NCBI RefSeq assembly: GCF_015555045.1 | Contig: NZ_JADNJQ010000011.1 | Location: 1 to 64,000, forward strand | Direction of reading: 5' to 3' | DNA from: Collinsella aerofaciens | GTDB taxonomy: Bacteria > Actinomycetota > Coriobacteriia > Coriobacteriales > Coriobacteriaceae | DNA: 64,000 nucleotides | Shown: positions 9,070-50,370 of the stretch, in pieces | How the letters are laid out: every line of letters starts with the position of its first letter | How positions within the stretch are numbered: the first letter of the stretch is position 1 | Notes under the pieces: model-generated | The model's input: only the letters and a program-made list of their open reading frames with translations | Told to the model about the DNA's origin: nothing | The model's database searches: none | Made by a program: the position numbers and the translations under genes

Positions 9070-10506
9070 TTAGCGGCGTTCGAGGACCGCTACGGTTTCG
9101 GTGTGGTCGGTGTGAGGGAACATGTCGACTGGCGTGATCTTGAGCAGGCGATAGCCTCCGTCGAGGAGCTGGTGCAGGTCGCGCTCTTGGGTCACGGGGT
9201 TGCAGCTGATATAGGTGATGCGGCGCGGCTTAAGTGCGCAGGCAGCTTCGAGGAACTCGGGCGTGGAGCCGGCGCGCGGCGGGTCGATGGAAAGAACGTC
9301 GACGCGTTCGTTGTTGTCGGCGGCATCCAGGATGTAGTCGGTGGCGTCGTCGGCCATAAACCAAGCGCTGCGGGTGAGGCCGTTGAGCTCGGCATTGCGA
9401 CGTGCGTCGGCAATGCCCGCCGGGTTGCGCTCAACGCCGAGCAGCATAATGCCGATACCCTTGTTCTGGGCATCTTTAGCTGCGCAAAGACCGATGGTAC
9501 CGCTGCCACAGTAGGCATCCATGAGCACATCGCCCTGGTGCAAATCCATGCCGTCGATAGCGAGCTGATAGAGCAGCTCGGTCTGTTGCGGGTTGGTCTG
9601 ATAAAACGCGGTGGGGGAGATGTCGAATTCGCAGCCGAGCAGCTGGTCGCGCATGCATTCGGCGCCATACACGATGCGGGTTTCCTCGCCGAGGATGGCG
9701 TTGCCGGGGCGTCCGTTGATGTTTTGGGCGACGGTGACGATGCGCGGATCGAGTGCGGCGACAGCCTCAAAGAACTCCTGCGCATGCGGCAAGTCGCGCT
9801 GAGCGGTCACGAGCGTGACCATGACCTGGTCGGTACGCCAACCGCAGCGGACGACGGCATAGCGAAGCAAACCAAGATGCTTGTCCTCATTAAAGGCGGG
9901 AATATGCAGCCGCTCAGCTTCGCGTGCGATGCCGTTGAGAATCTGACGGGCGCCCGGTGCCTCGACGGGGCATTCGGGTACGGCAACGATCTTGTGCGTG
10001 CCGCGCTCAAAGAAACCGCAACGGACAGCGCCCTCCTTACCGGGAGCAAAGGGAGTGGCAGCCTTATGACGAAAGCCACGCGGCGCAGGATATTTACCCG
10101 GGTCGCCAAGGGTGACGCCCATACCGCGAATAGGATCGACAGCAATGCTCTCGCGCTCACAAAGCTCGGCAAACAGCTCCTCCATAGCAGCCTGCTTAGC
10201 CGCCAACTGCTTTTTATAAGGACGATTGAGCGCCGTGCACCCACCGCAAGATTTCGTGATCGAACAGGGAGACTTGGGGTCCACAGCCTTACGCGCAGAC
10301 GAAACCTGATCTTTATGCGAGCGCTTGGAGCGAGTCTGAGATGCCTTATCCTCGTTCCGACGAGAGCCGGGACGCTTGCCCTTAGCCGACTTACCCTTCG
10401 CATTCAGAGACGACTTGGATTTCTTAGAAGATTTTCTCTCCCCCGACTCCTCAGCCGCCTCGATCAAAGCACGACGAGCCTTACGCTCCGCACGAGATTC
10501 TGCCAT
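9070..10506 (-). CDS. 23S rRNA (uracil-C5) methyltransferase, RumA/RlmD-like
   Basis: A 478-residue SAM-dependent RNA m5U methyltransferase of the TrmA/RumA family. An iron-sulfur cluster signature C-x5-C-x2-C is at 81-90 (CSITKSCGGC), with a probable fourth Cys in the later ECPVE. The SAM motif DAYCGSGTIGL, DPPRAG and the catalytic-cysteine motif SCNP follow in order. The first 80 residues are Lys/Arg/Ser-rich low-complexity sequence and replace the usual N-terminal TRAM domain. The exact target uridine (U1939, U747 or another) cannot be told. ATG 10506 is the first start of the frame, and no better internal start precedes the Cys cluster. Confidence 0.9.
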   Translation of the reverse strand: MAESRAERKARRALIEAAEESGERKSSKKSKSSLNAKGKSAKGKRPGSRRNEDKASQTRSKRSHKDQVSSARKAVDPKSPCSITKSCGGCTALNRPYKKQLAAKQAAMEELFAELCERESIAVDPIRGMGVTLGDPGKYPAPRGFRHKAATPFAPGKEGAVRCGFFERGTHKIVAVPECPVEAPGARQILNGIAREAERLHIPAFNEDKHLGLLRYAVVRCGWRTDQVMVTLVTAQRDLPHAQEFFEAVAALDPRIVTVAQNINGRPGNAILGEETRIVYGAECMRDQLLGCEFDISPTAFYQTNPQQTELLYQLAIDGMDLHQGDVLMDAYCGSGTIGLCAAKDAQNKGIGIMLLGVERNPAGIADARRNAELNGLTRSAWFMADDATDYILDAADNNERVDVLSIDPPRAGSTPEFLEAACALKPRRITYISCNPVTQERDLHQLLDGGYRLLKITPVDMFPHTDHTETVAVLERR

Positions 10507-10613: not shown

Positions 10614-10764
10614 GTTTGCCCGGCGTGGGCGGGGAGCGGCGCGTAATTAAGTTTATCGCGAGTTCCGCACGCAAAGGAAAGCACTTAATGTGCTTTCCGT
10701 CTTGCGCAGGACTGTAGAGCAGGAAACTTAATTACGCGCCGCTCCCCGCCCACGCCGGGCAAAC
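10614..10764 (+). ncRNA. Structured element copy 1 (41-bp perfect arms, conserved core)
   Basis: Arms 10614-10654 and 10724-10764 are perfectly complementary over 41 bases. The 69-nt core holds a second hairpin (GGAAAGCAC 10676-10684, loop TTAAT, GTGCTTTCC 10690-10698). Either side of the inner hairpin, the core is nearly identical to the element at 47706-47835, while the outer arms are unrelated in sequence. No reading frame runs through it. It is provisionally typed as an RNA because of stem covariation between the copies. A palindromic DNA repeat is the alternative. It lies between divergent genes, upstream of the amino-acid transporter promoter. Confidence 0.5.
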
Positions 10765-10770
10765 CCTCCC

Positions 10771-10799
10771 TTGTACTTTATCAAGGTAGAGTGTATGAT
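10771..10799 (+). promoter_or_regulatory. Promoter of the amino-acid ABC operon
   Basis: TTGTAC at 10771-10776, a 17-nt spacer and TATGAT at 10794-10799 make a good vegetative promoter, starting 7 bases after the structured element above ends. Confidence 0.7.
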
Positions 10800-10855: not shown

Positions 10856-11716
10856 ATGAATACCGATATGTCTCGTCGTCAATTTGTTGGTCTAGCCGGC
10901 TCGCTCGCCACGGTGCTTGGCCTTGGTCTTGTCGGTTGCGGCGGTGGTGCCGGTAAGGGTTCCGCTGCCGGTTCTGCTGCAGCCAAGGATGTGAAGGGCG
11001 CTGCGGAGTCCAAGAAGCTCGTGGTGGGCTTTGATAAGTCCTATCCTCCGTACGGCTTTGTGGGCGACGATGGTGAGTACACCGGCTTTGATCTCGATCT
11101 GGCCAAGGCTGTTGCCGATAAGCAGGACTGGGAGGTCAAATACGAGGCCATCGACTGGGACGCCAAGGATACGCTGCTTAACTCGGGCGCCATCAACTGC
11201 ATCTGGAACGGCTTTACCATGGAGGGGCGCGAGGATGACTACACGTTCTCTGAGCCGTACATGCTCAACGAGCAAGTGCTCGTGGTCAAGAAGGACGCGG
11301 GCATCAAGAGCTGGGACGATCTTGCCGGCAAGACCGTGATTACCCAGACCGATTCCGCTGCGCAGGATGTGCTCGAGGGTGACCAGAAGGATCTGGCGGC
11401 GACGTTTGCCACGCTCGACACGATCGGCGAGTACAACACGGCCTTTATGCAGCTCGAGAGCGGCGCGGTCGATGCCGTGGCTTGCGACCTTTCGATTGCC
11501 CAGTATCAGCTTGCCGCCAAGCCCGATGCTTATACGCAGCTTGATGAGCCGCTGTCCAGCGAGCACTACGCCGTTGGCTTTAAGAAGGGCGACACCAAGT
11601 CGGCCGATGCTGTAGCCGAGTCGCTCAAGGCGCTCTACGAGGACGGCACGGTCAAGGACCTCTGCGATAAATATTCAAGCTATGGTTTGTCTTTCGATAA
11701 TTGGGTGCTCAAGTAA
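10856..11716 (+). CDS. Amino-acid ABC transporter substrate-binding lipoprotein
   Basis: A 286-residue extracellular solute-binding protein of family 3 (polar amino-acid type). The N-terminus combines SRRQF, resembling a twin-arginine motif, with a hydrophobic stretch and the lipobox LVGC, so the mature protein is likely a lipoprotein starting at the Cys near residue 27. KSYPPYGFVGDDGEYTGFDLDLAKAVA and NGFTMEGREDDYTFSEPY are classic ligand-domain motifs. ATG 10856 follows AAGGGGGA. The permease start overlaps its stop by one base, so the three transporter genes form one operon. The exact amino acid is not predictable. Confidence 0.92.
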   Translation: MNTDMSRRQFVGLAGSLATVLGLGLVGCGGGAGKGSAAGSAAAKDVKGAAESKKLVVGFDKSYPPYGFVGDDGEYTGFDLDLAKAVADKQDWEVKYEAIDWDAKDTLLNSGAINCIWNGFTMEGREDDYTFSEPYMLNEQVLVVKKDAGIKSWDDLAGKTVITQTDSAAQDVLEGDQKDLAATFATLDTIGEYNTAFMQLESGAVDAVACDLSIAQYQLAAKPDAYTQLDEPLSSEHYAVGFKKGDTKSADAVAESLKALYEDGTVKDLCDKYSSYGLSFDNWVLK

Positions 11717-47304: not shown

Positions 47305-47456
47305 TTGACACTTGTAGGCGCAACCGTGGCAGGCGTTTGGGGTGACATTTTCCATTACCCCGATGACGAGACCGTCCTGGACGACACACTCGCATGCGTT
47401 CGCTGGATGTATTCAGAGTGGGACGGGCTTTCCGGATGGATGGGGTTTCGGAAAGT

Positions 47457-47608
47457 GTGTCCCGGAATTTGCCTTTGGAATGGGATGCGGTTTCCGGTTG
47501 AGGGCTCTGGTGGAAAATGCGACCCGGAATTTGCAATCGGAGTGGGATGCAGTTTCCCAACGGGGCCGTAAGCGGAAACTGCATCCCACTCCGGACGTGA
47601 ATTCTGGG
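47457..47608. repeat. Tandem units plus perfect palindrome
   Basis: CCCGGAATTTGC recurs at 47461-47472 and 47523-47534, 62 bases apart, each followed by a TGGGATGC(A/G)GTTTCC segment. The second unit extends into a perfect 20-bp stem (47538-47557 with 47574-47593). An outer CCCGGAATT to AATTCTGGG pairing encloses it. No open frame uses this region convincingly. Confidence 0.65.
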
Positions 47609-47705
47609 ACACGGTTTCCGGATGCAAAAAAGGCCACAAGACGTGGCCTTCAACTTATATATGTTCGGCGATACACCCAAGACAAGCCACGCTCCAACAA
47701 CAGGG

Positions 47706-47835
47706 CGTCTGTCCGGGCGGAGGTATGTAAGGTTCATCGCGAGTTCCGCACGCAAAGGGGGCCACTTAATGTGGCCCCCGTCTTGCGTAGGACTGTCCGA
47801 GCAGGGAACCTTATATGCCTCCGTCCGGACAGACG
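47706..47835 (+). ncRNA. Structured element copy 2 (30-bp arms, conserved core)
   Basis: Arms 47706-47735 and 47806-47835 pair over 30 bases, where the only three deviations are G-U pairs if the plus strand is transcribed. The 70-nt core matches copy 1 at 10655-10723 (ATCGCGAGTTCCGCACGC before, CTTGCG and AGGACTGT after the inner hairpin). The inner stem here is GGGGGCCAC/GTGGCCCCC in place of GGAAAGCAC/GTGCTTTCC, with the same TTAAT loop. It lies between convergent flavodoxin and LTA-synthase genes. Confidence 0.55.
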
Positions 47836-47855: not shown

Positions 47856-50156
47856 CTACTTGATCTTGGTCGTACCCGGTGCCAGGTTGGGGTCGGTCTC
47901 GTTGGCCTCGGTCTGGAAGTGCTCCGTATAGACGTTCTTGCCGTCGCGGAACATCTCGTAGTATTGCATCTTGGCGTAATCCTCGCGCGCCTTGGTGGCG
48001 GCTGCTGCGGCGGCGTCGTCACCGGTGACGTTGGAGGAGAGTGCCCAGCGCAGGCTGGCGTCCTCGTAGCCCACGGAGTTGATAGCAGGCAGCGACTCGC
48101 GCAGCGTCATGTGCGCCTTCTGGTAGTCGGTCAGCGGGGCGCCGATCAGCTGCATGAGTTGCGTGGACAGGTAGTTGGTGGACAGGTTGTCGACCTCACT
48201 CGTCTGGTCGCAGCCGGCAACGTCGTAGTTGGCCCAGATGATGTAGTCAGTCTGCCACAGGCGCTCTTGATGCGTGGCGTCGTCCTCGCCGGTAAACCAC
48301 TTGTCGTTGAACTTGGACGGGAAGAACGGCTGGTGATCGCCCCAGAACACCACGACCACCTTGCGGTCGAGTTTGCTCAAGGCGTTGAGGAAGTAGCGAA
48401 GCGCCTGGTCGGACTGCTCGATGCACGAGACATACTCGTCGACATCGGAGAGCGTGCCGTCCTCGACGGTCTTGGTGTCCAGGTCGGTCGTGTCGATGTT
48501 CAGGTGCATCTGCTTGTCGACCGGCAGCAGGCCCGTGTCGTAGCCCGAGTGGTTCTGCATGGTCACGTCGAAGATAAACTGCGGATCGGCGTTCTGGTCG
48601 AGCAGCTCAAGAATCTTGTCGTAGGTAGCCTGGTCGGTCACCATGCCGCGTAGGGTGTCGGCTCCCTGGAAGTCGTTGATGGACAGGAACCGGTCAAAGC
48701 CAAAGTCCTTGTACACGTTCTCGCGGTTCCAGTTGGTTGCGTGGTTGGGGTGCATGGCCGTGGTGGAATATCCGAGCGACTTGAACTGCTCTGCCAGGTT
48801 CCCGGTCGTTTCCATGTTGTAGATGGTGTAGGGGTACACGCCCGAGCCCAGGTTGGCCATGGAGTTGCCGGTCATAAACTCAAACTCGGTATTGGCGGTG
48901 CCGCCGCCGTAGGCGCTCACGTAGAGCTTACCGCGGCTGAGGCAGTTGGACAGGTTCTTAAAGTACTGCGGGCCCTCGTAGCCGGCGCGCATGTTCTGGT
49001 AGATCGAAAGATCCGAGAAGGTCTCGTTCATGATGGCGATGACCGTGGGCTTCTCGCTATCGAACTGCTCCTTTGCGGCGGCGCGCTCGTCGCTCTTGGC
49101 TGCGTCGGACTTGTCGTAGGCCTTGGCGTACTTTTTGAGCGTGGCCTTGGCATCGTCGACGGAGTAGTCGGCGGGTTTGGGCGGCTTGATGGACTGCGCT
49201 GCGCTAATGAAAGCGGGCAGGTAGCCCTCGCGCCAGTAGCTCTCGAGCGGGCGCCAGGTGTAGACGGTGATGCCGAGGGTGTTGTAGTAGTCGATGAGCG
49301 TGACGTGTGCGGTCACGCCGCCCAGGCACAGCACCGCCACGAGCAGGTTGGTGAGCAGCATGCGCTTGGCGTTGGCGGCGCCCTTCTGACGGTGCGGTGC
49401 CACCAGGCCGGCGTACTCGCACAGCAGCATGGCGATGGAGGTAAGGCCCATGGACAGCACGCAGAACAGTGAGATCGAGAAGGTGTAGCCGGTGCCGGCG
49501 ACCGCGGCGGCGGTGGAGATGGCCGAAAGGTCGCCCGGCTGGATGGGCATGGATTTAAACGTGATGACGAAGAACTCGGCAATGCCCAGGACAAAGAGGG
49601 CAAAGGCCAGGACCGCGGGAGCTGCGCCGTGGCGCTGGAACAGGAAGAACAGGCCGACCATGAGCGTGGTGATGATGGCCCACTCGAGCAGGATGCACAG
49701 GGGGTAGACCCAGGTAAAGTCGTGGTTGGACGAAACCTCCATGCCCAGCAGCGCAAAAACGCCGGCGAGCAGCAGGCACAGGACGGCGGCGACGAGCGGT
49801 TTGCCCACAAAGGCGCCGCGCAGGCGGGCGAGCTTGCCGGTGGGGGCGGGGGCGTCGGGCTTGGCGAACGCAAAGACGCGCGGGGCGATGCGGTCGCGGG
49901 CGATGCTGGCCCAAGCGCAGCCGGTGAGGATGGCGTTGGTCAGGATGAGCATCACGAAGGCGAGCGGCTCGTTCTGCGCGACGAGGCCAATAGCGCCCCA
50001 AATGGTCAAAAAGAGCTGGAACAGGCCGAAGGCGACGCTCCACCCAAGAGCGCTTTTGGCAACGGTGCCCGACTGAGCGCGAATGGCCTTGGCCTCGCGC
50101 AAAACAAGGTAGACGGTCGCCGCAAGACCGACGAGCGAGATGGCGGCAGCGAACAT
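47856..50156 (-). CDS. LTA synthase family sulfatase-fold membrane enzyme
   Basis: A 766-residue protein with a multi-helix membrane domain (about 1-280) and an extracellular sulfatase-fold domain, as in lipoteichoic-acid synthases and related phosphoglycerol transferases. NETFSDLS provides the metal-binding Glu, GGGTANTEFEFMTG the nucleophilic Thr, and VFWGDHQPF the Asp-His metal ligands. It likely transfers phosphoglycerol from phosphatidylglycerol to a glycolipid or glycan. ATG 50156 follows GAGGAGTCTCAGC; the GTG five codons upstream is less likely. Confidence 0.9.
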   Translation of the reverse strand: MFAAAISLVGLAATVYLVLREAKAIRAQSGTVAKSALGWSVAFGLFQLFLTIWGAIGLVAQNEPLAFVMLILTNAILTGCAWASIARDRIAPRVFAFAKPDAPAPTGKLARLRGAFVGKPLVAAVLCLLLAGVFALLGMEVSSNHDFTWVYPLCILLEWAIITTLMVGLFFLFQRHGAAPAVLAFALFVLGIAEFFVITFKSMPIQPGDLSAISTAAAVAGTGYTFSISLFCVLSMGLTSIAMLLCEYAGLVAPHRQKGAANAKRMLLTNLLVAVLCLGGVTAHVTLIDYYNTLGITVYTWRPLESYWREGYLPAFISAAQSIKPPKPADYSVDDAKATLKKYAKAYDKSDAAKSDERAAAKEQFDSEKPTVIAIMNETFSDLSIYQNMRAGYEGPQYFKNLSNCLSRGKLYVSAYGGGTANTEFEFMTGNSMANLGSGVYPYTIYNMETTGNLAEQFKSLGYSTTAMHPNHATNWNRENVYKDFGFDRFLSINDFQGADTLRGMVTDQATYDKILELLDQNADPQFIFDVTMQNHSGYDTGLLPVDKQMHLNIDTTDLDTKTVEDGTLSDVDEYVSCIEQSDQALRYFLNALSKLDRKVVVVFWGDHQPFFPSKFNDKWFTGEDDATHQERLWQTDYIIWANYDVAGCDQTSEVDNLSTNYLSTQLMQLIGAPLTDYQKAHMTLRESLPAINSVGYEDASLRWALSSNVTGDDAAAAAATKAREDYAKMQYYEMFRDGKNVYTEHFQTEANETDPNLAPGTTKIK

Positions 50157-50370
50157 GCTGAGACTCCTCACAAACTTAAAACCTACGAAAGCGGGGGTTT
50201 ACCCGATTGTTACCTAAATATGCGCTGCATTTGCGGGCTGCGCACAACAACCAGCCATATTAACGCGCATGTGCGGCGGTGTGGCGCAATGTAGTGGCGA
50301 CCTGCGCGATAATGGACGGGAATTACACGGAAACGTAAAGGCTTCTTAAAGAATTGGCGAGGATAGAGCT

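Follow-up and report, generated by a model that had tools for sequence, protein, structure and literature searches.

Integron attC sites are folded hairpins with extrahelical bases and a variable stem sequence, in which the outer boxes are conserved and the inside varies. MITEs such as ERIC and the Correia elements are short, non-coding palindromic repeats that occupy intergenic regions across a lineage. REP, BIME and REPIN sequences are GC-rich interspersed hairpins that occur many times per genome, mostly just past stop codons and in recurring inverted pairs, and one account of REP sequences gives GTAG or CGTC as the tag at the hairpin foot (PMC3733652). A survey of candidate structured RNAs in human microbiomes reported palindromic candidates on both strands, some of them suspected REPs, without naming a palindrome from Coriobacteria in its main text (Fremin and Bhatt 2021; PMC8040213).

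Here we describe a family of hairpin-forming repeats, apparently large and undescribed, in Collinsella-related gut bacteria. Two of its copies lie in the window, the whole 64,000-nucleotide stretch of Collinsella DNA that was analyzed. The family shares the above properties of REP, BIME and REPIN sequences, but its arms are much longer, near-perfect and different between copies, a conserved asymmetric core sits in mid-element whereas those sequences have a conserved foot tag, and it is not tied to Y1 transposases as REP and REPIN sequences are. It resembles MITEs as a short non-coding palindrome of intergenic regions, yet its outer inverted repeats are not common to the copies, there is no target-site duplication signal and no parent transposon was found. 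With attC sites it has in common a hairpin with extrahelical bases beside gene ends and a variable stem, although the Coriobacteriales family conserves the inside and varies the outside, and its neighbors are ordinary chromosomal genes.

The two copies in the window

Site 1 (10614-10764) and site 2 (47706-47835) each form a long hairpin in which the outer arms enclose a conserved asymmetric core that in turn carries an inner hairpin. This layout had been proposed in a preliminary description of the window, and the sequence of both sites bears it out (Table 1). Aside from the inner stem, the two cores differ by a single base (GCGCAGG in site 1, GCGTAGG in site 2) and by TAGAG in place of TCCGAG. 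The inner stem itself is changed on both sides of the TTAAT loop, as had been noticed, and the two sites turn out to be two of about 24 copies in the genome. All three mismatches between the 30-bp arms of site 2 are G.T in the + orientation. The predicted folding z-scores of the window copies range from -12 to -15 on both strands; together with the 24 places in the genome and the persistence of the pattern in further copies, they put the arrangement far beyond chance.

Table 1. Parts of the two window copies and neighboring features
Feature	Coordinates	Strand	Basis
Site 1 left arm, perfect inverted repeat, 41 bp	10614..10654	+	sequence
Site 1 conserved core, ATCGCGAGTTCCGCACG...GCAGGACTGTAGAGCAGG	10655..10723	+	
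Site 1 inner hairpin, GGAAAGCAC-TTAAT-GTGCTTTCC	10676..10698	+	
Site 1 right arm (41-bp perfect match to left arm)	10724..10764	+	
Site 2 left arm, 30 bp	47706..47735	+	
Site 2 conserved core, right side GCGTAGGACTGTCCGAGCAGG	47736..47805	+	
Site 2 inner hairpin, GGGGGCCAC-TTAAT-GTGGCCCCC	47757..47779	+	
Site 2 right arm	47806..47835	+	
23S rRNA uracil methyltransferase (RlmD/RumA-like), running away from site 1	9073..10506	-	
Promoter-like TTGTAC-N17-TATGAT immediately to the right of the site 1 arm; would serve the solute-binding-protein gene at 10856	10771..10799	+	read from sequence
Promoter-like site left of site 1	10597-10569	-	promoter scan
Sulfatase-domain protein (weak match to lipoteichoic acid synthase), gene end next to site 2	47856..50171	-	

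Site 1 sits between divergent genes and upstream of the promoter-like motif of each, an arrangement which suggests that neither mRNA includes the element. The motif on its right is conserved in relatives, but the promoter scan did not flag it. The stop codon of the sulfatase-domain gene starts 20 nt right of the right arm of site 2, and neither window copy has a T-tract or a terminator-like site. Just left of site 2, at 47405-47625, lies a second dispersed repeat made of GGAAACTGCATCCCACTCCGG-type units, which has 72-77% matches at other loci in several relatives.

Spread of the family and its position relative to genes

In the 61-contig Collinsella assembly from which the window comes, BLAST (E below 1e-4) located the element at 24 places, one of them listed on both strands; most close relatives carry at least 20 copies each. 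When coriobacterial genomes were searched with a covariance model, as the preliminary description had suggested, 124 of the 249 Coriobacteriales genomes proved to carry the hairpin family, which thereby covers 34 of 99 genera, and a closer search of 25 carrier genomes yielded 10-38 copies in most of them. Collinsella, Enorma, Slackia and Tractidigestivibacter are among the matches listed in a pattern scan of genome contigs. The exact core pattern occurs in 14 of 396 Actinomycetota genomes, all 14 of them Coriobacteriales. Outside the order, the covariance model identified clear core relatives in only two genomes, of which one (G370) belongs to a different family of the class and the other (G268) is farther removed; their copies have the core GCGAGTTCCGCAG...GCGAGGACTG within inverted arms; strict order-specificity was dropped on these grounds.

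The internal-loop nucleotides are invariant across the Coriobacteriales. Variants without most of the inner hairpin also occur, so what stays constant in the element is the internal-loop motif, flanked by two helices whose sequence is free. At L296, L377, L378, L390 and L446 there is little or no inner hairpin, with the same internal-loop core and long arms. At L328, L319, L351 and L352, partial extra right halves (for example GGGACTGCTCGAGCATGG) lie in tandem beside full copies. Many copies from genomes of family f2 have a CAGGTYGA motif just outside the right arm (L304, L303, L282, L310 and others); CAGGT is found in 21 of about 99 right flanks of these copies, and the motif is not found in Collinsella copies. 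The matches listed also include a typical copy in a record titled as a Corynebacterium MAG (L083), probably a mislabelled or contaminated bin.

No Rfam family matched the window, the selected loci or the short variants, for which only sub-threshold chance hits, miRNA-like and similar, were returned, and the same database gave no T-box or other known leader near the cysS, thrB, serA and leuS copies. The family is not named in the accessible main texts on REP sequences or gut-microbiome structured RNAs, and a literature search with the core letters returned unrelated primers only. These results agree with the initial suggestion that the element might be undescribed. A BLAST search for phage or viral carriage was negative, and two stricter patterns gave no match. 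Ten pattern matches in viral contigs were rejected because they lack arms and have no model match, as was a further exact match (L447), which lies inside open reading frames and is armless. The plasmid search had a 900-kb Collinsella replicon as its sole match; short-query BLAST matches in archaeal plasmids and viruses look like chance similarity to the GCGAGCGAAGCGAGC part of the query.

The family prefers gene edges. Genes near distant copies were called by a rough gene finder, with the window as its training sequence. Of the 72 contacts within 45 nt, 62 are with gene 3' ends and 10 with 5' ends; the gene lies on the right side of the core in 61 of them and on the left side in 11. An annotated record concurs, placing an element 24 nt after the stop codon of tsaD. 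In Tractidigestivibacter (L116 and L269) and at Collinsella locus 6, and hence in two families, a copy follows the stop codon of the same gene, which suggests that the gene and its element moved together. Other copies lie 12-37 nt upstream of the start codons of cysS, thrB, leuS, serA, ffh and gatB (all but gatB named by eye from protein sequences, not by family search), and some positions, those in front of cysS, thrB, leuS and serA, recur from species to species. Where a Collinsella species has few copies, several of the remaining ones stand 12-23 nt before the thrB, cysS and leuS starts, and the serA and ffh start-codon copies belong to other genera of the same family. Relative to the core, copies are transcribed in either direction, opposite for gene-end and gene-start copies, so one RNA strand cannot serve all of them.

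Covariation and block-wise rewriting of the arms

Compensatory changes are real and order-wide. In the MAFFT alignment, 22 of 34 pairs have changes on both sides, amounting to 126 cells versus 39.6 in shuffles, and the paired fraction drops from 95.2% to 44% or less once the partners are slid. Another, gapless set comprises 24 cores drawn from several genera; it contains 62 both-side cells versus 18.6 and is 99.1% paired. The covariation score was reached by 0 of 500 shuffles. Further copies keep the pattern first noticed between the two window sites: 150 distinct cores contain 64 different inner-stem sequences, which are 98.5% Watson-Crick. Nearly every copy has the AGTTCC/GGACT pairing, which is almost invariant, so covariation says nothing about it. 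The suggestion that CGCAA and TTGCG extend the pairing held for one core subtype and for that subtype only; two pairs in this position (34-64 and 35-63 by the column numbers of alignment A2) do vary on both sides from one subtype to another.

RNA helices tolerate G.U on one strand, and selection on the RNA strand would be expected to tolerate G.U and avoid A.C. The 1,350 inner-stem pairs include 8 G.U versus 9 A.C; MFE folds from the same window have 3 G.U among the 33 pairs of the SRP RNA and 4 among the 27 of one tRNA. In the arms, mismatches number 41 G.T versus 33 A.C more than 10 nt from the core and 69 versus 25 within 10 nt of it, the latter excess being partly a recurrent inherited wobble; these events were made distinct by local context and their independence is incomplete. 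Because the G.T excess is limited to the first 10 nt, strand asymmetry exists only beside the core.

Orthologous sites behave in two modes: either the arms and core are nearly unchanged, or both arms differ with flanks that are only 4-10% divergent. Both arms are different, around the same core, between L015 and L072 at locus 6 (flank divergence 4.9%) and, with a different core subtype as well, between L052 and L133 at locus 7 (3.9%). The swap at locus 9 is confined to the middle of both arms, and the L010 site provides another wholesale both-arm swap. Matched, block-wise rewriting at fixed sites is carried by such wholesale-swap pairs, mean arm divergence over all ortholog pairs being not above flank divergence. 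Relatives have three arm types at site 1, with the outer TTGCCCG common to all, and two at site 2, with the outer CGTCTG common to both and with mixed left/right alleles (for example L165, L166 and L174). In one strain (G032, L206), the core at site 1 has been inverted and the arms around it left intact.

The outer arms had been called unrelated. They do differ from copy to copy, but their inner part is common within a genome and fades away from the core: in three many-copy genomes, arm similarity among copies is 0.43-0.64 beside the core and reaches background by 25-30 nt. Two loci of G206 have 23 nt of arm in common, as expected of recent copying. We dropped the idea that the outer arms are target-site copies, since they have a common G-rich pattern as well as this common inner part. 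At the L010 site, a different structured repeat of about 200 nt (GCGAAAACGCCTCTGATGAGCC...CATCAGAGGCGTTTGCAGCGTCGAG) stands in place of the left half of the element in G005, G022 and G036 (L438, L439 and L440); in G005 it contains a gene for an IS110-like transposase that a stop codon interrupts.

Origin and maintenance of the element

Template switching between inverted repeats is reported to homogenize arms, to produce a number of matched changes in one go on occasion and sometimes to invert the spacer (PMC8794818, PMC8604942). We infer that it accounts best for the matched changes seen here, not every one of which is traceable to a template-switch event with the present data. Joint rewriting of the arms, often along with the core subtype, and inversion of the core are outcomes expected of inverted-repeat template switching; the matched changes look like upkeep of a DNA palindrome and not like proof of a working RNA. 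Taken with the lack of G.U excess in the inner stem, with transcription in both senses, with the place of site 1 between divergent genes and with the inner arm part common within a genome, they speak against the reading of the compensatory changes as the mark of a selected RNA, which the preliminary description had advanced.

We consider it likely that the element is a copy of a Coriobacteriales interspersed hairpin-forming DNA repeat, REP/BIME- or MITE-like, with a core that is recognized, arms that are kept matched by template switching and a trans-acting enzyme. In this repeat, GCGAGTTCCGCACG facing GCGAG(C)AGGACTGTCCGAGC constitutes a short asymmetric motif, the conserved internal loop between the inner hairpin and the outer arms, and this motif would be the recognized part, probably as a folded single strand. 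The enrichment of arm G.T wobbles near the core points to the core strand in that role. Arms and inner stem would be kept complementary mainly by copying one arm from the other in replication (quasi-palindrome template switching); alternatively, arms may be renewed by recombination with other copies, and either process would explain the inverted core too. Copies would spread by means of a trans-acting enzyme that need not be a Y1/RAYT transposase. Several results fit this explanation less well: the invariance of the core over very distant genera implies selection or a conserved partner, the upstream positions kept across species at cysS, thrB, leuS and serA suit a cis-acting role, and an RNA on the core strand could likewise account for the excess of G.T in the first 10 nt.

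The main rival is a structured RNA family, whose core would be a protein-bound RNA motif in untranslated regions (leader or 3' UTR) and whose stems would covary under selection for the fold. Strong covariation on independent alignments, internal-loop nucleotides invariant across the order, the one-strand G.T excess near the core and the copies shortly before six start codons, several conserved between species, all favor it. We nevertheless regard it as rather unlikely, since inner-stem G.U is no commoner than A.C (compare the G.U counts of the SRP RNA and tRNA folds), transcriptional senses are opposite at gene ends and gene starts, neither likely transcript includes site 1, arms are replaced block by block beside little-changed flanks, and there is no Rfam relative. 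The preponderance of gene 3' ends among close contacts, stems that are very stable on both strands and the annotated case after tsaD would instead suit a terminator, insulator or mRNA 3'-end stabilizer, with a hairpin formed by either strand and a dependence on factors contributed by the core. A simple terminator was rejected for want of a T-tract at the window copies, which also lack any terminator-like site, and even the broader version seems improbable given an invariant asymmetric core that a terminator does not need and a minority of copies in 5' leaders just before start codons.

It is more doubtful still, to the point of being very improbable, that the element is a REPIN moved by a Y1 (RAYT) transposase. 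RAYT-like Y1 proteins do occur in most close genomes, and element and Y1 presence are correlated over the order outside Collinsella (both in 53 genomes, element only in 29, Y1 only in 54, neither in 68; p=0.006). However, Y1 went undetected in 12 of the 25 closely searched carriers, one of them with 29 copies, and no copy adjoins the RAYT genes in the twelve loci read; RAYT linkage was rejected as a requirement on both counts. Nor does the hairpin foot have a conserved GTAG/CGTC tag, the arm feet differing from copy to copy.

For the favored DNA repeat with a recognized core, a target-site duplication of at least 3 nt was present at 6 of 201 junctions versus 4.7 expected, which is no signal, and the three sites compared were filled, truncated or rewritten in close relatives, with no clean empty site among them. 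The search for a mobilizing enzyme was negative as well, and movement of the copies is thus inferred. Tentatively, the family could be an order-wide single-strand hairpin element with its own non-Y1 recognition enzyme, whose arms would be continually rewritten arm-from-arm so that one-step matched changes mimic RNA covariation; we see this as a possibility rather than an expectation.

In summary, our best reading is a REP/MITE-like DNA hairpin whose core is recognized and whose arms are kept up by template switching; it accounts for more of the data than does a structured RNA, itself a possible reading. New structured RNAs are usually argued for from covariation. In the present family it is very strong, yet the lack of G.U excess, the matched rewriting in blocks and the inversion of a core point to maintenance at the DNA level, and the family offers a natural test case for RNA selection versus template switching, with hundreds of replicate sites. 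The element is a common and apparently unannotated part of Coriobacteriales genomes that breaks short-read assemblies, with several copies at contig ends, and it adjoins essential genes in gut bacteria.
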